From NCBI GenBank assembly GCA_030653355.1, contig JAURZN010000168.1:1-33089 (forward strand): a stretch of 33,089 bases of DNA, in the 5' to 3' direction. The number at the start of each line of letters is the position of its first letter. Position 1 is the first letter of the stretch. This stretch comes from Gallionella sp. (GTDB lineage: Bacteria; Pseudomonadota; Gammaproteobacteria; Burkholderiales; Gallionellaceae). The position numbers and the translations under genes are program-made. The notes beneath the pieces are model-generated. The model searched no databases and was not told where the DNA came from. It was given only the letters and a program-made list of their open reading frames with translations. Shown here in pieces: positions 17,109 to 31,037 of the stretch.

Positions 17109-20100
17109 TCACTGCATCGGAAAGCGTAAGGACTCTCGTGCCGCTGGACGCTCACGCAATGCCTCGTACAACTGAGCGGGGCCAAGCAGTACATCTTTTA
17201 ATCCGCTCCGCACCTTCTTCGACCCAAGTGCCTGCTTACTCAACGATGAGTGTGCCGACAGCGCATCCATGATGGCGTTCATCAGTTCATTCGCCAGATC
17301 GGGTGAATTCGCAAACTGCTCCTTGGTGTTGTTATTGGCCTGCTGTACCAGAATATCCGATTCGAGCAGCTTGCTGCGGGTATGGTTTACATAAGCCAGT
17401 TGATCTCCATCGGTAGTGTCATTGCCAAATAGCTCGTTTACCTTTGCAATAATTTCTGCGAGGTAAATCTTCTCCTGCTCCCGCACCTCGCCACTGCCGG
17501 GTTCGGTCAGTGGGACTAACTTTGGATATTCACCGTTCACCAGTGCCAAGTTGCGTTTGCCCTGATCCTTCAGCTTGTGATGGGTCAACGTCACCTTGGA
17601 CAGATCGACGCCCTCACGTTCCCGCCCGAACTCCAGCAAGGGCAACAGCCGTTTGAAGAAGATGGCGCGCTTCTCAATGGCAGTGTTGCCGTAGTCGAAT
17701 ATCTGCGACAGGAAGGCATACACCCGCTGGAATGCACCCAGATTGTGCTTGAACAACACCAGTGCATTCATTTCATCTTGCGCGGCTTGTTCCGCAGAAA
17801 CGTAAAAGTCGCGCAGCGATTCGTTTTCCCCCTCCCCCGCAAAGCGGGGGAGGGTTGGAGAGGGGGAACGGGCCTGCCCGTTGGCATCCTGTTTCATCGC
17901 GGCGGCCTTGAATGCTTCCAGTGCGGCTTTGTAGCGTTTCAACAGTCGATCCGCCACGGGTTCAATGGCAGCGGAAAGCTCAGCCTGCGACGCGTTGGGG
18001 TTCATCTCCACGTTCACCACACGATCCACCTCGTTGTCGTCGTAGTGACCATCTGCATCCAGTTTGGCGCGCAAGTCATACACCAGATTCGGATCGGTTA
18101 CACCGTCCAGTTCTGCGGTTTCAAAGTATGTCTTGAAGGCACTCAACACCTCGTCAGGATCGTTCACGAAGTCGAGTACATAGGTCGTATCCTTGCCCGG
18201 ATAGGCACGGTTCAGGCGCGACAGTGTTTGCACCGCCTGAATACCCGCCAGCCGCTTGTCCACGTACATGCCGCACAGCAGGGGCTGGTCAAATCCCGTC
18301 TGGAATTTGTTGGCGACCAGCAGAATCTGATACTCATCGGTGGCGAAGGCTTCACGGATGTCGCGCCCGTTCAGATTGGCGTTAAGCGTCTTGCTGGTTT
18401 CAGAGAGCGGATCGGGGTGTGATTCCTGATCGTATACCTCGCCTGAGAAAGCCACCAGCGTACCGATTTTGTATCCCTGTGACTTGATGTATTTGTCGAT
18501 GGCAATCTGCCAGCGCACCGCCTCCAGACGACTGCCGACTACCACCATTGCCTTGGCTTTGCCTTCGAGTAAGGGCTGCACGTTTTCACGGAAGTGTTCC
18601 ACCACCACTTGCACCTTCTGGATGATGTTGTAGGGATGCAGACGCACCCACCGCATGATGCCTTTCATCGCCGTGCTGCGTTCCACTTCCTTCTCATCCC
18701 ACTCACGCCCTTCCGGGATTGGAGATTCGCGTAGCGATTCGTTTGCCCCCTCTCCCGCATAGCGGGGGAGGGTTGGGGAGGGGGTTGTGGCGAGTTTGAA
18801 AGCCAGCTTGTACGGCGTGTAGTTCTTCAGCACATCGAGGATAAAACCCTCCTCAATAGCCTGACGCATGGAATAGACGTGGAACGGCGCAGGCAAATTG
18901 CTATCACTGGCAGGCAGTGCCAGATTGGGACGACGACCGAACAGCTCCAGCGTTTTTGCTTTGGGCGTGGCGGTGAATGCGACATAAGTGATCCCCGCGT
19001 CATTCGCCCGTGCCGCCATGTTCGCTGCCAGCAAGTCTTCCGTGCCGATCTCGCCCCCATCCGCCAATTCCTGCATTTCTTCGGCACTCAACAACTGCTT
19101 GAGCTTGGATGCGGCTGCGCCCGTCTGTGAACTGTGTGCTTCATCGGCTATCACTGCGAAGCGTTTGCCTTGAGTGGCAGCGAGTTCCTGCACGGCCTGT
19201 AGCGCAAAGGGGAAGGTCTGAATAGTACACACCACGATTTTCTTGCCGCCGGACAGTGCTTGCGCCAATTCGCCGCTCTTGCTCTGACTTTCGCCCTTGA
19301 TGGTAGCGACTACGCCAGCGGTACGTTCAAAGTCGAAGATAGCTTCCTGCAACTGCGTATCCAGCACGGTACGATCCGATACCACCAGTACCGAGTCGAA
19401 CAGTTTTTTGTGTTGCGCATCGTGTAAGTCGGCGAGGAAGTGTGCCGTCCATGCGATAGAGTTAGTCTTGCCCGAACCGGCAGAGTGTTGGATCAGATAC
19501 TTATTCCCCTCGCCCGTTTGCGGGAGAGGGGCTAGGGGAGAGGGTGAATGCTCCGCCAGCACCGCCGCCAGCAGTTTTCGGGTGGCATCCAGTTGGTGAT
19601 AACGCGGGAAGATCACAGCCTTGATCTGCTTCTTGCTGTCGCGCTTGGCGACGATATAACGCCCGATGATTTCCAGCCAGCTTTCCCGCGCCCACACCTG
19701 TTCCCACAGATAGGCGGTGCGATGCCCGTTCGGATTGACAGGATTACCCGCCGCGCCGTGGTCGCCCAGATTGAATGGCAGGAACGTCGTTACTGCACCC
19801 AGCAGGCGTGTGGTCATCATCACCGCACTGTTACTGACTGCGAAATGCACCAGTGCGCCACGCGGAAAGTCCAGCAGTGGTTCGGCGGAATTTTGCCCTT
19901 TGGGTTTGGGGTGACGGTCGAAGCGATACTGATCCACCGCATCGTCCACTGACTGCGTGAAGTTTGATTTCAGCTCTACCGTCGCAACGGCGATGCCGTT
20001 CAGGAACAGCACCAGATCAATCGAGTTTTCGTTGTGCAGCGAATAGCGCACCTGACGTACCACGCGCAGGCGGTTGGCGGCGTACTTCTGTTGTAACTCC

Positions 20101-20516
20101 GGGTTCATTGCCAGTGCGGGTTTAAACTGCGCAAGCTGCAACGGCTGACGCAAGCCCAGCAACTCAATGCCATGCCGCAATACATCCAGCGTACCGCGAT
20201 CATCCAGTTGGCGGCGTAACCGATCCAGCAAAACCGCTTCGGCGGCTGCGCCGTGACTTTTGCATAACGCGTCCCACGCCTTCGGTTGAGTATCCTGCAC
20301 CCAGGCAATTACATCGGAGGGGAATATGGCACGGGCGCGGTCATAGGCAGCAAAGTCGCCGAGCGTGGTTGTTGACGCTTCAGCGTCTTTACAACCACGG
20401 CTTACCCCTTGCGGGTGCTCCGCACTTGTCAGCGCAGGCTGATACAGCCAGCCATGCGCGGCAAGATGTGCGCAAATGTCGTTCTCGAATTCGATTTCTT
20501 TGTGCAATGCGCTCAT
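17109..20516 (-). CDS. hsdR: Type I restriction endonuclease subunit R
   Basis: HsdR is the ATP-driven DNA translocase and nuclease of type I restriction complexes. The 1135-residue protein has an N-terminal nuclease core (D167 with E181-L182-K183), a helicase Walker A SAGSGKT (about 347-353), the box ADEAHSS, motif III FTATPK and the late helicase motif QTLSRLNRAYPGK, plus a C-terminal helical domain for complex assembly. Four stretches look foreign to the family: residues about 26-53, 327-345, 576-600 and 882-904. Each coincides with a DNA palindrome read in frame, giving peptides such as SPSPTLPRYAGEG. None hits a catalytic motif, although one sits directly ahead of Walker A. Twelve bases separate it from the toxin gene upstream. 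Confidence 0.95.
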   Translation of the reverse strand: MSALHKEIEFENDICAHLAAHGWLYQPALTSAEHPQGVSRGCKDAEASTTTLGDFAAYDRARAIFPSDVIAWVQDTQPKAWDALCKSHGAAAEAVLLDRLRRQLDDRGTLDVLRHGIELLGLRQPLQLAQFKPALAMNPELQQKYAANRLRVVRQVRYSLHNENSIDLVLFLNGIAVATVELKSNFTQSVDDAVDQYRFDRHPKPKGQNSAEPLLDFPRGALVHFAVSNSAVMMTTRLLGAVTTFLPFNLGDHGAAGNPVNPNGHRTAYLWEQVWARESWLEIIGRYIVAKRDSKKQIKAVIFPRYHQLDATRKLLAAVLAEHSPSPLAPLPQTGEGNKYLIQHSAGSGKTNSIAWTAHFLADLHDAQHKKLFDSVLVVSDRTVLDTQLQEAIFDFERTAGVVATIKGESQSKSGELAQALSGGKKIVVCTIQTFPFALQAVQELAATQGKRFAVIADEAHSSQTGAAASKLKQLLSAEEMQELADGGEIGTEDLLAANMAARANDAGITYVAFTATPKAKTLELFGRRPNLALPASDSNLPAPFHVYSMRQAIEEGFILDVLKNYTPYKLAFKLATTPSPTLPRYAGEGANESLRESPIPEGREWDEKEVERSTAMKGIMRWVRLHPYNIIQKVQVVVEHFRENVQPLLEGKAKAMVVVGSRLEAVRWQIAIDKYIKSQGYKIGTLVAFSGEVYDQESHPDPLSETSKTLNANLNGRDIREAFATDEYQILLVANKFQTGFDQPLLCGMYVDKRLAGIQAVQTLSRLNRAYPGKDTTYVLDFVNDPDEVLSAFKTYFETAELDGVTDPNLVYDLRAKLDADGHYDDNEVDRVVNVEMNPNASQAELSAAIEPVADRLLKRYKAALEAFKAAAMKQDANGQARSPSPTLPRFAGEGENESLRDFYVSAEQAAQDEMNALVLFKHNLGAFQRVYAFLSQIFDYGNTAIEKRAIFFKRLLPLLEFGREREGVDLSKVTLTHHKLKDQGKRNLALVNGEYPKLVPLTEPGSGEVREQEKIYLAEIIAKVNELFGNDTTDGDQLAYVNHTRSKLLESDILVQQANNNTKEQFANSPDLANELMNAIMDALSAHSSLSKQALGSKKVRSGLKDVLLGPAQLYEALRERPAARESLRFPMQ
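17809..17866. repeat. Palindromic GC-rich repeat, copy A, inside hsdR coding sequence
   Basis: The stem is CCCTCCCCCGC (17830-17840) with GCGGGGGAGGG (17844-17854), perfect over 11 bases, flanked by GCGATTCG on one side and a GAGAGGGGG tail on the other. The 58-base unit is 53/58 identical to the copy at 18727-18784. It is read in frame as hsdR residues about 884-903. Confidence 0.85.
18727..18784. repeat. Palindromic GC-rich repeat, copy B, inside hsdR coding sequence
   Basis: The stem is CCCTCTCCCGC (18748-18758) with GCGGGGGAGGG (18762-18772), one mismatch, three-base loop. It shares the same flanks as copy A, 53 of 58 bases identical, in the same orientation and the same reading frame. 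It encodes hsdR residues about 578-597. Confidence 0.85.
19506..19543. repeat. Palindromic GC-rich repeat, copy C, inside hsdR coding sequence
   Basis: The stem is CCCCTCGCCCG (19506-19516) with CGGGAGAGGGG (19521-19531), one mismatch, followed by the GGGGAGAGGG tail. It shares only the core with copies A and B. It encodes SPSPLAPLPQTGEG about ten residues before the hsdR Walker A motif. Confidence 0.8.
20364..20399. repeat. Second type of palindrome inside the hsdR 5' coding region
   Basis: This is an inverted repeat: CGTGGTTGT (20364-20372) pairs with ACAACCACG (20391-20399), with an inner stem GACGC (20374-20378) and GCGTC (20383-20387) around TTCA. It is unrelated in sequence to copies A-C. 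It encodes hsdR residues 40-51 within an apparent insertion after GWLY. Confidence 0.75.
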
Positions 20517-20528
20517 GCTCGCTTTCAG

Positions 20529-20801
20529 TTAATAGACTGCATCATGATCGCCCACATTGACTGGGATGATTTTCCCATCCTGAATCAGCAATTCCAGCGT
20601 AATGCGATACGACAGGTTAATGGACACCGAATGCAAACCCTCGTGTTTGCCGCGCAAGCGATGTAAGCGCAAGGATGGATGGCTTGGGTTGGCGGCAAGC
20701 AGTTGCAAAGTTTTAGCGTAGGGCTGCCTAAGTTCGGGATGCCGTTTTATGAACTGGACTTCTTTGCGCTTGAATTGCTGCGTAAAAATCAGCTGGAACA
20801 T
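20529..20801 (-). CDS. RelE/ParE-superfamily toxin (type II toxin-antitoxin)
   Basis: The 90-residue basic protein resembles the RelE/YafQ/ParE toxin fold: an N-terminal strand and helix with QFKRKEVQFIKRHPEL, then HPSLRLHRLRGKHEGLHSVSINLSYRITLELL, and a C-terminal IIPVNVGDHDAVY ending typical of YafQ-like mRNA interferases. Whether it cuts mRNA or inhibits gyrase cannot be decided from sequence. Its ATG overlaps the antitoxin gene by 13 bases, the classic toxin-antitoxin arrangement, and hsdR follows 12 bases after its stop. The pair therefore lies inside the restriction operon. Confidence 0.85.
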   Translation of the reverse strand: MFQLIFTQQFKRKEVQFIKRHPELRQPYAKTLQLLAANPSHPSLRLHRLRGKHEGLHSVSINLSYRITLELLIQDGKIIPVNVGDHDAVY

Positions 20802-21052
20802 GCTTGATCAAGCCAGGCTAAATGCTCATCCAGCGATTCTGTGGTAAACCGACCTGCCGCCAGGTCCGCTTTGGTTTCAGCAATGGCGGCATCCAGCTCG
20901 CATTCGCGCAAGTAGTTGTATTGAGCAATTTCCATCACCACAAAGCGATCCTTGCCGCGCACCGACACAATCGCCTCAGAATGTTGTGCCAGCATGGCTT
21001 CGATGGCCGCCACTCCTTTGGTTTTCAAGTCATTAGCACTGATATGAGACAT
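20789..21052 (-). CDS. Phd/YefM-type antitoxin
   Basis: The 87-residue protein has the N-terminal Phd/YefM DNA-binding fold (MSHISANDLKTKGVAAIEAMLAQHSEAIVSVRGKDRFVVMEI), in which the VSVRGKDRFVVM segment is characteristic of prevent-host-death antitoxins. An acidic C-terminal tail (TKADLAAGRFTTESLDEHLAWL) should wrap the toxin. The ATG at 21052 is chosen rather than the longer upstream frame because it gives the family start MSxISANDLK and is preceded on the minus strand by CAGGAG. It lies 71 bases after hsdS. Confidence 0.85.
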   Translation of the reverse strand: MSHISANDLKTKGVAAIEAMLAQHSEAIVSVRGKDRFVVMEIAQYNYLRECELDAAIAETKADLAAGRFTTESLDEHLAWLDQACSS

Positions 21053-21123
21053 GATGCACTCCTGGTTAAACCTGTTAGAACGTGCATTTAACCATGCGAT
21101 AAACAACACTGTAAAGCGCGCTA

Positions 21124-21786
21124 TTAAACTTGCTGTTCGCGCACATCGATCTTGCCGGTCACGGCGGCGGAAATTAGCGCGCTGCGGCGTTCTTGCAGCA
21201 GTTCTACTAGCCGCCGTTGCTCGGTAATCAAAGCATCAATCTTCCCCGTCTCGCGGTCGAGGAAGGCGGCGATTTGGGTTTGCTCGACGAGGGGAGGGTT
21301 TGGAAAGCTGATATTGCCGAGACGCTCAGTGTTGAGAATCCGCAGGACATTACCCGTCGACGCGAGTTCAAGTTCAGCTCGACCAGAACAGATGGCATAA
21401 AACAAATACTGACAGTCCTCTCGCGGTACTGCCGCAGTAATTTGCTGATTGGTCGAGACGGCAGTATTTGTAATTCCGACTTTTCCAATGGTGCCGATAC
21501 AGCAAATCAAAGAGGCGCCAGCCGTGATTTGGCGTGTTTTTAACCACCCTTGTTCTGTTAAAAATTTCGATGCTTTAGTCGGTGTACCCGTTTCATTGAG
21601 GTCTTCAGGACGAACCCATTGGAATACATCATCTTCCGTGTAGTTACCCAAGTCGTCGGTTGGAGGAGTCATGCCAGTTTGAAGCCTGGCAAGGTGTTTG
21701 AGTGGCCTAACTGCCCACCCTCGCGGCACTTCGCCCAGCCATTCCACGCCGCTGGCTTTGTATTCGGGATAATTCGGAAGGCTCAT
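21124..21786 (-). CDS. hsdS: Type I restriction specificity subunit S, half-length (single TRD)
   Basis: HsdS chooses the DNA target of the type I complex. Standard proteins have two target recognition domains and about 400-450 residues; this one has 220. It begins with the usual YKASGVEWLGEVPRGW start, has one recognition domain, then the conserved helix QTQIAAFLDRETGKIDALITEQRRLVELLQERR. It ends with the normal C-terminus SAAVTGKIDV. So it has proper ends but only one repeat, as if the middle was deleted. Single-domain S subunits can work as dimers reading a palindromic bipartite site. Its ATG overlaps the GIY-YIG stop (ATGA). Confidence 0.9.
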   Translation of the reverse strand: MSLPNYPEYKASGVEWLGEVPRGWAVRPLKHLARLQTGMTPPTDDLGNYTEDDVFQWVRPEDLNETGTPTKASKFLTEQGWLKTRQITAGASLICCIGTIGKVGITNTAVSTNQQITAAVPREDCQYLFYAICSGRAELELASTGNVLRILNTERLGNISFPNPPLVEQTQIAAFLDRETGKIDALITEQRRLVELLQERRSALISAAVTGKIDVREQQV

Positions 21787-22286
21787 GCGATTTCTCCCGC
21801 TTCGTCATTCCCGCGAAGGCGGGAATCTAGTGAGTTCAAAGATTCCTGCGCAGCAGGACAATCGTTTTGTCCGCTCTGCGGGGCTGTTTGTTTTGCTGGA
21901 TTCCCGCCTACGCGGGAATGACGGGAAGGGGCGCTGGAATGACGGGAAGGGGCGCTGGAATGTTCGCCTATGTCAGGAACGCGGAAGTCGGCTTGCTCTC
22001 CTGTGATGACCGGCCAAAGGTCAAGCCAGTTTGGGTTGGTCTGTTCAATCAAGTTGAATTTCCATGCCCGATTCCATTTCTTGATGGCTTTTTCGCGGGC
22101 GATGGCGGATTCCATCGTTTCGTGTTGTTCAAACCAGACCAGCAAGGTGACGTTGTATTTTTCGGTAAAACCAGCAACTGCGTGGGTTCGGTGTTGCCAG
22201 TCGCGTTTGATCAGGTCGCTGGTGACACCGACATAGAGTGTGCCATTGCGTTGGCTTGCCATTAAATATACGGCGGGGGTTTTCAT
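21783..22286 (-). CDS. GIY-YIG nuclease-family protein with repeat-derived C-terminal tail
   Basis: The core (residues 1-100) matches small GIY-YIG proteins: AVYLMASQRNGTLYVGVTSDLIKR carries the two signature strands and the arginine, and MESAIAREKAIKKWNRAWK is the typical following helix. Family members are usually about 90-110 residues; this one has 167. The extra tail after about residue 110 is built from repeat DNA: a duplicated seven-residue unit HSSAPSR and two palindrome translations (SRHSRVGGNP, LDSRLRGND). The ATG at 22286 is preferred over a longer frame that overlaps rhuM. The stop overlaps the hsdS ATG, so it is coupled to hsdS. Any DNA-cutting role in the restriction system is unproven. 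Confidence 0.82.
   Translation of the reverse strand: MKTPAVYLMASQRNGTLYVGVTSDLIKRDWQHRTHAVAGFTEKYNVTLLVWFEQHETMESAIAREKAIKKWNRAWKFNLIEQTNPNWLDLWPVITGEQADFRVPDIGEHSSAPSRHSSAPSRHSRVGGNPAKQTAPQSGQNDCPAAQESLNSLDSRLRGNDEAGEIA
21807..21826. repeat. Inverted repeat ATTCCCGC/GCGGGAAT, copy 1
   Basis: Perfect eight-base arms, ATTCCCGC (21807-21814) and GCGGGAAT (21819-21826), surround GAAG. The same motif recurs at 21900 and 22306. Such elements are dispersed in many beta- and gammaproteobacteria and resemble neisserial dRS3. It is translated at the end of the GIY-YIG protein. Confidence 0.85.
21900..21962. repeat. Inverted repeat ATTCCCGC/GCGGGAAT, copy 2, with 21-base tandem duplication
   Basis: ATTCCCGC (21900-21907) pairs with GCGGGAAT (21912-21919). 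It runs into two identical 21-base units (21915-21935 and 21936-21956) plus a six-base partial third. Because 21 is a multiple of three, the duplication keeps frame and gives HSSAPSR twice in the GIY-YIG protein tail. Confidence 0.85.
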
Positions 22287-22804
22287 GCGCTGTACCCGTT
22301 TCTGGATTCCCGCATTCGCGGGAGTGACGAGATGGCGCGGATTTTTGCGAGCAGATTTTCGTAATAGTCTTTGCTCAGAAACGCGCCGTTCTTCAGCAGT
22401 TCCTTGTCCAGCACATAGCCGCGAATGGCGAAGTCGCGCAGTACGCCCGTGGCCCATTGGCGGAATTGGGTACCCCGGTGGCTGCGCACACGGAAGCCTA
22501 CGGCAAGGATGGCGGACAGATTGTAGTGGCGCAGATTGCGCGATACTTCGCGCCCGCCTTCCTGGCGAACTTGTAAGTAATCCTTACAAGTTGCCATCTC
22601 GTTTAGTTCGCCTTCGGCAAAGACGGCTTTCAAGTGCAGGGTGATGTTCTGCGGCGTGGTCTGGAATAGCTCCGCGAGCTGCGCCTGTGTCAGCCAGATA
22701 GTTTCACCCTCAAACCGGCATTGAATGCGACTGCTGCCGTCTTCAGTCTGGTAGAGGAGGAATTCTCCGGTTTGATTAGCTGACTGAGTGTTTTTATCAA
22801 TCAT
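22283..22804 (-). CDS. RhuM-like protein, C-terminally truncated
   Basis: The 173-residue product matches the N-terminal half of the RhuM family (named for Salmonella SPI-3 RhuM; members are often found in type I restriction loci, with unknown function). Recognisable are GEFLLYQTEDG, IWLTQAQLAELFQTTPQNITLHLKAVF with a helix-turn-helix look, and HYNLSAILAVGFRVRSHRGTQFRQWAT. Full-length proteins run to about 330 residues and continue after the YFExLLxxIREIR region. Here that region (YYENLLAKIRAI) runs straight into residues encoded by the inverted repeat at 22306 and stops. It is therefore probably a remnant. It overlaps the GIY-YIG start by four bases. Confidence 0.8.
   Translation of the reverse strand: MIDKNTQSANQTGEFLLYQTEDGSSRIQCRFEGETIWLTQAQLAELFQTTPQNITLHLKAVFAEGELNEMATCKDYLQVRQEGGREVSRNLRHYNLSAILAVGFRVRSHRGTQFRQWATGVLRDFAIRGYVLDKELLKNGAFLSKDYYENLLAKIRAISSLPRMRESRNGYSA
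22306..22325. repeat. Inverted repeat ATTCCCGC/GCGGGAGT, copy 3, at the rhuM end
   Basis: ATTCCCGC (22306-22313) and GCGGGAGT (22318-22325) surround ATTC, with one imperfect pair. It lies exactly where the RhuM-like protein loses similarity to its family and just upstream of the GIY-YIG start. Confidence 0.8.
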
Positions 22805-23086
22805 AGCCTTACCCCTTGTATCCGCAACAATGGTTGTGCAATCCAGTGTTTATTCATGTGATAGTAACCGCATGATTATAAATAATATTATATGAGTTTC
22901 CGTTTTCTGGTGTGATAAGAAAACGAATGAAATTCTTCAGGAATCCTAGGGGACGGAACGATGAAATTCGGCGAGATGTAGTAGTGTGTTCCCAACAAAA
23001 AAGTAACCCCACGGTTTGAGCGTCGTGCCGATGATCCGGCTGATAGGCTTGGAGGGTGTTGTTAGGTGAATGATACATGGCAAGGC
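22805..23086. other. Gap between hsdM and rhuM remnant, no gene seen
   Basis: This 282-base stretch has no supported gene. Its left part is AT-rich (TTATAAATAATATTATAT around 22876-22893) and on the minus strand offers TATAAT-like -10 boxes that could drive rhuM and following genes. The remainder (22920-23080) is of mixed composition with no recognised protein remnant. Confidence 0.4.
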
Positions 23087-24853
23087 TCATGCCGACAGCC
23101 CCGCGATCATGGTCAAAATCCGATCCGTACACTGCTTCAGTTCGGTATCAATCGCCGCCAGTGGGCGCGGTGGCTGAAATACGTAGAAGTGGCGATTGAA
23201 CGGGATTTCGTAACCCACTTTGGTTTTGTCGTGGTCGATCCACGCATCAGGCGCATGGGGCAACACTTCGCGCTTGAAGTAACTTTCCACATCCTCGCTC
23301 AATGGCACGTTTTCAGTATCGCGCAGACCACTATCCGATTGCGGCTTGCCTTTCAGTTTGCCCTTTTCGCCCAGCACAATCTTGCCTGCCGTATCGCGCA
23401 AGGGGCGTTCAACGGTGATGGTGCGATAGCCAAAGTCTTGATTTTTGAAGATGCGACTAATCGGCTGCCCTCTCCCCAACCCCTCTCCCGCCTGCGGGCG
23501 AGGGGCTTCGACGAAATCGCCAAACAAGCGGGTGACTTCAGCGATGTGCGCTTCAGACATTTCCTTGCGCTTGCTGCCGAGGCTCTTGCGCATCTTCTGC
23601 CACAGGCCGGAAGCGTCGATCAGTTGGACGTAGCCTTTGCGCGTTTCTGGCTTACGGTTGGAGAGTATCCATACGTAAGTGCTGATGCCGGTGTTGTAGA
23701 ACATGTCGGTGGGCAGGCCGATGATCGCTTCGACCAGATCGTTTTCCAGCACATAACGGCGAATCTCGCTCTCACCCGAACCCGCGCCGCCAGTGAACAG
23801 CGGTGATCCGTTGAGCACGATACCGAAGCGACTACCACCTTCGGCGGCTGGGCGCATCTTGTTGACGAGGTGCAGTAGAAACAGCAGCGAACCATCCGAC
23901 ACACGCGGCAGACCGGGGCCGAAACGTCCGTTGAAACCTTGCTGCTCGTGCTCCTTGCGGATGTCTTTCTCGACCTTTTTCCACTCCACGCCAAACGGCG
24001 GATTGGACAGCATGTAGTCGAATTTCTTGTGCAGGTGTCCGTCATCCGACAGGGTGTTACCCGGCATGATGTTGGCGACATCTTGCCCCTTGATGAGCAT
24101 GTCGGCTTTGCAGATGGCGTAGGACTCGTCGTTCAACTCCTGCCCGAACATGGTGAGCCGCGCTTCCGGGTTATGCTCTTCCAGATACTCGCCTGCGATG
24201 GACAGCATCCCGCCCGTGCCTGCGGTCGGGTCGTAAATGGTACGCACCACGCCCGGCTTGGACAGCACATCGTCATCTTCGATGAACAGCAAGTTAACCA
24301 TCAGGCGGATAACTTCACGCGGGGTGAAGTGCTCACCGGCAGTTTCGTTGGAGATTTCAGCAAACTTGCGGATCAGCTCCTCGAACACCAGTCCCATCTG
24401 ACTGTTGCTGACCACATCGGGGTGCAGGTCGATCTGTGCGAACTTCTCGGTGACTTGATACAGCAGGCCGGATTTGGCGAGGCGATCAACCAGTGTGTGA
24501 AAATCGAACCGCTCGAAGATGTCGCGCACGGCTGGGGAGAATGACTGGACGTAGCTGTACAGGTTTTCACGGATGTGATCCTGATCACCCATCAGTTTCT
24601 TCATGTCTAGGGCGGACGTGTTGTAGAAACTTTGCCCGGCTTTGCGCAACAGGAACGGTTCAGGATTCAGTCCGGCTTGCTGTTTTGCCTCCAGTTCGAC
24701 CAACACGGCAGGCTTGGTTGCTTCCAGCACGCAGTCCAGACGGCGTAGCACGGTGAACGGCAATATGACCTTGCCGTATTCGGATTGTTTGTAGTCGCCG
24801 CGCAGTAAATCGGCGACTGACCAAATGAAGGACGAGAGCGTTGTGTGATTCAT
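23087..24853 (-). CDS. hsdM: Type I restriction DNA adenine methyltransferase subunit M
   Basis: HsdM methylates adenine in the recognition site and, with HsdS, forms the core of the type I complex. The 588-residue protein has an N-terminal helical domain (about 1-160), the SAM-binding motif [10 protein letters not shown], and the catalytic NPPFG (N6-adenine type). A C-terminal part contains [15 protein letters not shown] and [10 protein letters not shown], typical of this subfamily. Between about residues 448 and 462 a peptide [13 protein letters not shown] is encoded by a GC-rich palindrome related to those in hsdR, in a linker of variable length. It is the first gene of the island; the partner genes follow on the same strand. 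Confidence 0.96.
23468..23504. repeat. Palindromic GC-rich repeat, copy D, inside hsdM coding sequence
   Basis: The stem is CCCCTCTCCCGC (23479-23490) with GCGGGCGAGGGG (23493-23504), one mismatch, two-base loop, with the CCCTCTCCCC arm on the left. The tail is on the opposite side compared with copies A-C, so the element is inverted relative to them. It is read in frame in hsdM. Confidence 0.8.
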
Positions 24854-30930: not shown

Positions 30931-30964
30931 GTTAGTCGTTAGTCGTTAGTCGTTAGTCGTTAGT
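30931..30964. repeat. Heptanucleotide tandem array (GTTAGTC), 4.9 copies
   Basis: Four full copies of GTTAGTC plus GTTAGT run from 30931 to 30964. On the cbbY strand the array ends six bases before the start codon, so it occupies the place of the ribosome-binding site and leader. Confidence 0.95.
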
Positions 30965-30984
30965 AGGAGAAGATGTTTTCTCAA

Positions 30985-31037
30985 TCCTCAGTCCTCAGTC
31001 CTCAGTCCTCAGTCCTCAGTCCTCAGTCCTCAGTCCT
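30985..31037. repeat. Heptanucleotide tandem array (TCCTCAG), 7.6 copies
   Basis: Seven perfect copies of TCCTCAG (30985-31033) plus TCCT fill the gap up to the ffh stop codon at 31042. The unit shares AGTC spacing with the neighbouring GTTAGTC array but differs in two bases. A seven-base period is not coding. Confidence 0.95.

Follow-up and report, generated by a model that had tools for sequence, protein, structure and literature searches.

The window analyzed here is the whole of one contig (JAURZN010000168.1, C106; 33,089 nucleotides) of a 2.6-Mb Gallionella sp. assembly of 224 contigs. Its minus strand carries hsdM, a short RhuM-type open reading frame (ORF), a GIY-YIG ORF, hsdS, and hsdR, and our subject is the short palindromic repeats that are read in frame within hsdR and hsdM. 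The hsdR gene (17109–20516, minus strand) encodes a type I restriction subunit R of 1135 amino acids with Pfam matches to HSDR_N, SWI2_SNF2, ResIII, and T1R_D3-like domains, and hsdM (23087–24853, minus strand) encodes an N6 adenine methyltransferase subunit of 588 amino acids with matches to N6_Mtase and HsdM_N. Between them, hsdS (21124–21786, minus strand) encodes a half-size subunit of 220 amino acids, which may act as a dimer. All three subunits of a type I restriction-modification system were identified with their domains, HsdS with only one specificity-domain match. The proteins most similar to HsdR come from Gallionella and other Gallionellaceae assemblies (91% identity over the best segment to Gallionella sp. 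E6_maxbin.073), the best homologs of this HsdR within the genus are 94% and 93% identical, and the host genome is probably Gallionella-related.

The initial annotation of this locus, made from the sequence alone, described four GC-rich palindromes, three in hsdR and one in hsdM, translated as part of each protein, and we found both their positions and their in-frame reading to be correct. In order along the window, insert r1 (17796–17879, minus strand) is 84 nt long, codes for residues 880–907 (GQARSPSPTLPRFAGEGENESLRDFYVS), and has its palindrome core at 17830–17854, while insert r2 (18714–18785, minus strand; residues 578–601, TPSPTLPRYAGEGANESLRESPIP; core 18748–18772) is 72 nt long in the window versus 84 nt in the homologs G010 and G011. 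Insert r3 (19506–19550, minus strand; residues 323–337, HSPSPLAPLPQTGEG) stands where GAGQ is otherwise found, inside the helicase-motor match (SWI2_SNF2, residues 307–563) and directly before the Walker A strand. Insert r4 in hsdM (23468–23506, minus strand; residues 450–462) begins just past the N6_Mtase match (residues 151–448). The 58-base copies at 17809–17866 and 18727–18784 are identical at 53 of 58 bases, as had been claimed. In frame, the 17809 copy reads SPSPTLPRFAGEGENESLRD, the 18727 copy TPSPTLPRYAGEGANESLRE, and the 19506 copy SPSPLAPLPQTGEG, and the hsdM copy gives 13 residues; the peptide originally quoted, SPSPTLPRYAGEG, is a blend of the 17809 and 18727 peptides. A further insert, overlooked in that annotation, brings the in-frame repeat inserts of hsdR to four: it belongs to a second palindromic family (20361–20435, minus strand; residues 28–52, ALTSAEHPQGVSRGCKDAEASTTTL), the remaining 83 HsdR sequences of the alignment have no insert reaching 8 residues there, and its family was matched in 36 of 61 genus genomes. 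An interdomain or loop position of the inserts is plausible; an AlphaFold model of HsdR from 43 sequences was poor (mean pLDDT 50.6, pTM 0.28), and our placement of the inserts is not based on it. As a separate observation, the two 58-base copies lie 918 bp apart as direct repeats, a distance divisible by three, so that recombination between them would remove 306 codons in frame.

Setting the copies from the host genome side by side, we distinguished by eye two kinds of unit that share one hairpin. The long unit, about 84 nt in hsdR, has a motif like TCGCGYAGCGATTCGTTTGCC ahead of the stem and, by eye, apparently imperfect outer arms; the short unit, about 40 nt, consists of the stem and a TTGGGGAGAGGG-like tail. 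Inserts r1 and r2 belong to the long kind, r3 and r4 to the short. The stem pattern CCCTCNCCCG-N4-CGGGNGAGGG, allowing at most three mismatches, was found at 42 places in the genome versus 2 for a reversed control, and the same stem with a loop of five gave 7 raw matches (two overlapping at one place) versus 2. A genome search with a 121-base query around the first copy returned nine places, some of them partial only. Our working set consists of 41 own-genome copies with at most two mismatches, within stretches fetched around the stem places. Across 61 genus genomes, stem copies ranged from 0 to 139 per genome, with at least one copy in 52 of the 61 and a single control match overall. With a 10-bp stem, a loop of 4–5 nt, and many copies, the element is a stem-loop of the repetitive extragenic palindrome (REP) type (20–40 nt), with the stem pairing following in part from the search pattern used.

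The coding properties of this hairpin bear on its fate within genes. The typed consensus is free of stop codons in all six frames for the short unit and in five of six for the long unit, which would make in-frame survival easy. Because the stem is palindromic, it can encode three peptide types. Among in-gene copies with a loop of four in the host genome (three in-gene copies with a loop of five being left out), 17 were of a GEG type, 5 of an SPASGRG type, and 1 of an arginine-rich PLSRLRER type; in two replicate genomes, G021 and G081, the corresponding counts were 13, 12, and 1. The arginine-rich frame was thus used by 2 of 49 copies, rarer than one third (P = 7.5 × 10−7, in a test that treats copies as independent, some of which share sites). 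From this rarity we take the peptides to be translated and filtered, and their chemistry seems to be what is filtered.

We compared HsdR and HsdM with their relatives. The initial annotation had described the inserts as absent from homologs. For the two long copies this holds in 9 of 11 HsdR relatives; the other two, G010 and G011, carry both r1 and r2, with r1 altered in G010. The element at site 577 (r2) is present also in Gallionella sp. STB_49; in L108 it occurs with a different frame in its core. The r3 site immediately precedes GAGQKYLIQHSAGSGKT. It is filled by the REP in the window and by an unrelated repeat of 57 nt (HPQGVRRGCKDAEASTTT type) in G011, G024, and L115; eight of the eleven relatives are without an insert of such kind there, and G030 has no coverage. 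The site before Walker A is therefore occupied by two unrelated repeat families in different species. Among eight relatives compared at the r4 site of hsdM, repeat-type inserts are present in G013a and G007 and absent from G010, G024, G022, G019, and G013b, and in G051 there are a few additional residues unlike the repeat.

To place these cases in the wider family, we assembled 80 HsdR loci from named genomes, the eleven relatives, and the window, a total of 92 rows, of which 84 were retained after removal of 2 short and 6 duplicate sequences. Over the core, we counted 19 insertions that reach 8 residues or more, and 16 of them were repeat-type by their DNA, falling at five sites; the remaining three do not resemble repeats. 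All repeat-type insertions were confined to 9 of the 84 sequences, with 75 having none of at least 8 residues. On a quick tree, the minimum number of changes was 3 at site 261, 4 at site 323, 1 at site 577, 2 at site 880, and 1 at site 28, counts that are a weak measure of independent events, as the tree leaves 27 of its 81 inner branches open and lineages may have exchanged alleles.

It had also been proposed that in-frame palindromes were here peculiar to a restriction enzyme, a view that the genome-wide count does not sustain. By curation, 26 of the 41 own-genome copies are in frame within ORFs that have Pfam matches, with no fewer than 40 codons to either end, the other 15 being intergenic, terminal, or unclear. 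Named in part from Pfam matches, the carriers are HsdR (three copies), HsdM, a second HsdM-like protein, CysS (two copies), RmlB, TrpC, MutM, PurL on two contigs, GatB, LysA, EarP, CobB, a UbiH-like protein, a DAO-family oxidase, a FadE-like protein, an AMP ligase, an ABC-F protein, a GAF-HD protein, an AddB-like nuclease, and three less clear ORFs (L072, L080, L094). The genes cysS, purL, and gatB are usually essential. The repeat falls within one domain match in 11 of the 26 cases and outside the matched domain in L072, L080, L094, and L100, and in alignments to solved structures (PDB) it falls in a gap for PurL (21 residues), RmlB, and TrpC. An automatic ORF and codon rule gave a similar picture, counting as in-gene 24 of 41 copies in the host genome, 8 of 13 in G021 (all of its counted copies), and 18 of 32 in G081 (the copies within stretches fetched; whole-genome count 54), or 50 of 86 in total. 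Pfam matches at 1e-8 were obtained for nine of the ten replicate ORFs tested, two of which match MmeI or Eco57I-type restriction-modification proteins.

A composite query of 11 fragments found matches in all 37 genomes searched, and 40 places were fetched among the matches listed. Empty or otherwise filled sites were observed for HsdR, HsdM, PurL, CysS, and RmlB. Among the matches listed, the PurL site is empty in 4 of 14 fetched relatives and holds many different inserts in the rest, the CysS site holds several insert types and almost none in G015, and two of six RmlB relatives are plainly empty by length. For other carriers the comparison was less varied: both MutM relatives viewed carry inserts, with no empty site among them; the sole relative viewed for DAO and UbiH, the closest one (G015), shares the insert, with no empty site seen; GatB and LysA relatives have an identical or shorter form; and one CobB relative has a different form. 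Two side observations belong here. The PurL stretch (L192–L200, L205, L081, L088) contains many different in-frame inserts across species of the genus, some of about 40 residues, and the host assembly has purL on two contigs (C175 and C194; L081 and L088) with different inserts at one site, so the bin may mix strains. In the RmlB of G011 (L187), the REP itself holds a further in-frame insert, an instance of nested coding repeats.

We next consider whether the inserts are maintained for their own sake. Among pairs of the window, G011, and G010, the ratio of nonsynonymous to synonymous divergence (dN/dS) was 0.05–0.08 for the HsdR core versus 0.54–0.70 for r1 and r2 together, and 0.46 to 0.95 for r1 and r2 taken singly, with insert column ranges that take in a few core codons at their edges. 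Fisher tests of core versus insert on rounded difference counts gave P values of 0.003 or less, based on small insert counts (13 to 34 differences) and three pairs that are not independent. The ratio in the HsdR core indicates strong purifying selection. Compared with L108, r2 has a dN/dS of 0.39–0.61, in a comparison that crosses a frame change: L108 reads the core of the 577 element in another frame, with compensating length changes. Together with the insert dN/dS, this frame shift indicates that the frame is kept and the peptide less so. Dispersed palindromic repeats, read in frame, lacking in most homologs, and set in a gene whose core is kept by purifying selection, are accordingly what the locus contains, as the initial annotation had it; of the two fates it offered the repeat, tolerated or selected as a protein linker, these ratios and the altered frame in L108 favor the first and speak against the second.

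Selection of the inserts as useful linkers or regulatory loops of HsdR and HsdM, for example by loosening the motor or by slowing translation through an mRNA hairpin, is in our judgment very improbable. Such a role would agree with the retention of r1 and r2 in three species (the window, G010, and G011), with the non-random use of frames, and with a dS inside r1 and r2 (0.10–0.31) that is below that of the core (0.49–0.51). The relaxed insert ratios, the changed r1 of G010, and the other reading of the 577 element in L108 count against it, as do the 75 of 84 aligned HsdR sequences that lack a repeat-type insert of at least 8 residues and the presence of the same repeats in many unrelated ORFs. 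The low insert dS may instead come from copying between repeats or from constraint on the hairpin. Least probable of all is that the carriers are decaying pseudogenes that merely accumulate repeats. Signs of decay could be seen in the GIY-YIG and short RhuM-type ORFs between hsdM and hsdS, in the single specificity domain of HsdS, and in two stops inside the HsdR match of the near homolog G010. Yet the reading frames of hsdR (1135 codons) and hsdM (588 codons) are uninterrupted, the HsdR core has the low dN/dS given above, the window HsdR keeps a complete Walker A as well as the remaining residues common to all 43 rows of its alignment, and the usually essential genes cysS, purL, and gatB carry the same repeats.

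The account that very probably holds is that short non-autonomous repeats have spread in Gallionella-related genomes and are kept, in frame, in permissive loops as translated peptide. Under this account, long and short units built on one hairpin would spread among these genomes; a copy landing in frame in a permissive protein loop would be retained as translated peptide, and copies that shift the frame or strike a sensitive place would be lost. As few protein places tolerate inserts, different copies and families would end up sharing sites across species. HsdR and HsdM would then be two among many carriers, presumably still active, with the HsdR core remaining under purifying selection.

Several observations weigh against this account of spread and tolerance. 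No insertion event itself was seen, and target duplication was not evident by eye at the filled and empty junctions viewed. Neither r3 nor r4 is a clean insertion, as each replaces about four codons, and in EarP only four residues are added, without counterpart in two relatives. The low dS inside r1 and r2 is unlike that of purely neutral DNA. Finally, random places in the own-genome stretches pass the automatic rule about as often as the repeats do (938 of 1560), and no depletion of the repeats from genes is visible. Assuming a coding density of 85–90%, the in-gene share of 58% (95% interval 47–69%) compares with 46–50% expected at full tolerance (P = 0.07 against 48%) and 34–40% at half tolerance, so random insertion followed by a frame filter would fit only with tolerance of almost all in-frame insertions.

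The same share bears on site-directed insertion, in which a recombinase or a single-strand target preference steers hairpins to particular sequences and so causes sites to be re-used. Different inserts at the same sites in HsdR (261 and 323), HsdM, PurL, and CysS, and an in-gene share not under that of random places, speak for it; however, no common target sequence was apparent by eye, without statistics, at the few empty sites viewed, a protein-level filter also explains the re-use without any targeting, and a weak alignment gives EcoR124I HsdR a longer segment of its own at 323. We regard it as unlikely. A bolder form of the tolerance account, which we hold only tentatively and think doubtful, is that protein-coding sequence is the main habitat of these repeats. 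In-frame copies would be trapped in genes while intergenic copies decay, since an imprecise deletion of an in-frame copy would disrupt the reading frame, and the several families would form a pool of spare peptides that refills the same permissive loops in essential and restriction enzymes genus-wide and supplies most larger HsdR-family insertions.

The likeness to Rickettsia palindromic elements (RPEs) drawn at the outset proved apt, since in-frame insertion into conserved protein genes is seen here as well. PMC2229807 describes RPEs as palindromic repeats of 105–146 bp in frame within conserved protein genes, found in 19 reading frames and apparently tolerated, and an RPE-bearing guanylate kinase as active. 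The Gallionella units differ in length (about 84 and 40 nt), and, unlike RPEs, the same sites are repeatedly filled by different inserts. The same source gives in-frame fusions to protein genes for small mobile sequences of enterobacteria and Neisseria (ERIC/RU-1, RU-2, RU-3, Correia); these are miniature inverted-repeat transposable element-like sequences of about 100–200 bp, several with target duplications such as we did not see by eye at the Gallionella junctions viewed. Also comparable are the GTAG/CGTC REPs of Di Nocera and colleagues (2013), described in PMC3733652 as short stem-loops, mostly intergenic with some wholly within ORFs, and including same-site insertions in recB of two Xanthomonas, for which a neutral-loop argument was proposed. 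A GTAG/CGTC-like word lies within 8 nt of the stem in 3 of 41 Gallionella copies, leaving 38 of 41 without the tag, and, unlike the mostly extragenic REPs, the Gallionella palindromes are in frame in ORFs in a majority of cases by either count, curated in the host genome or by rule in three genomes.

Intragenic REPs and RPEs, the neutral-loop proposal, and same-site insertion are therefore already described in PMC3733652 and PMC2229807. Our case differs from these in the missing tag, in showing no visible gene depletion, and in several families re-using sites in restriction and housekeeping enzymes. The main text of PMC3733652 contains no word starting with "restriction" or "hsd", the list of target ORFs being in its supplement. 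Among the papers listed by literature searches, we recognized none as describing this palindrome family, repeats in this genus, or REPs in hsdR.

As to what may mobilize the repeats, the genome has one REP-associated tyrosine transposase (RAYT) above cut-off (NF047646, 200 bits) and one IS200-type transposase. In 61 genomes, stem copy number correlated with RAYT matches (rho = 0.62, uncorrected for kinship and assembly quality), with a median of 14 copies in 37 genomes with a strong RAYT versus 2 in 24 genomes without. However, 6 of the 24 genomes without a strong RAYT have at least 10 copies, and 5 of the 37 with one have at most 3. The RAYT of this genome is flanked on its far side by different palindromes (GTAGGTCGGGTT), and its other side is near a contig end; on the copy-number correlation, a RAYT is a candidate mobilizer.

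The neighboring ORFs of the operon hold repeats of other kinds. Two CGTC-type palindromes of a different family (21803–21830 and 21896–21923, spanning 21803–21923, minus strand) code for the C-terminus of the GIY-YIG ORF (21783–22457, minus strand), which lies between hsdM and hsdS; its last 50 or so residues include these in-frame palindromes, and a third is at 22306. We considered and rejected a general link between the nuclease and these palindromes, which were present at 1 of 30 GIY-YIG loci, the window excluded, versus 3 of 37 control loci. The RhuM-family ORF (22283–22804, minus strand), inside the restriction operon, matches 89 of 252 profile positions. Elsewhere in the window, seven-base tandem repeats (GTTAGTC, CTCAGTC) at 30931–31035 adjoin or overlap ORF ends.

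Taken at the strength given above, these results trace most of the larger insertions in one restriction enzyme family to palindromic repeats (16 of 19 that reach 8 residues, among 84 sequences), and place such repeats in many housekeeping enzymes of one bacterial lineage. Sites that repeatedly take varied inserts, such as the PurL loop and the HsdR stretch before Walker A, amount to a natural map of insertion tolerance. With nearly all frames open, one peptide chemistry avoided, and no depletion from genes visible, the family offers a testable system for the study of selfish DNA within genes.

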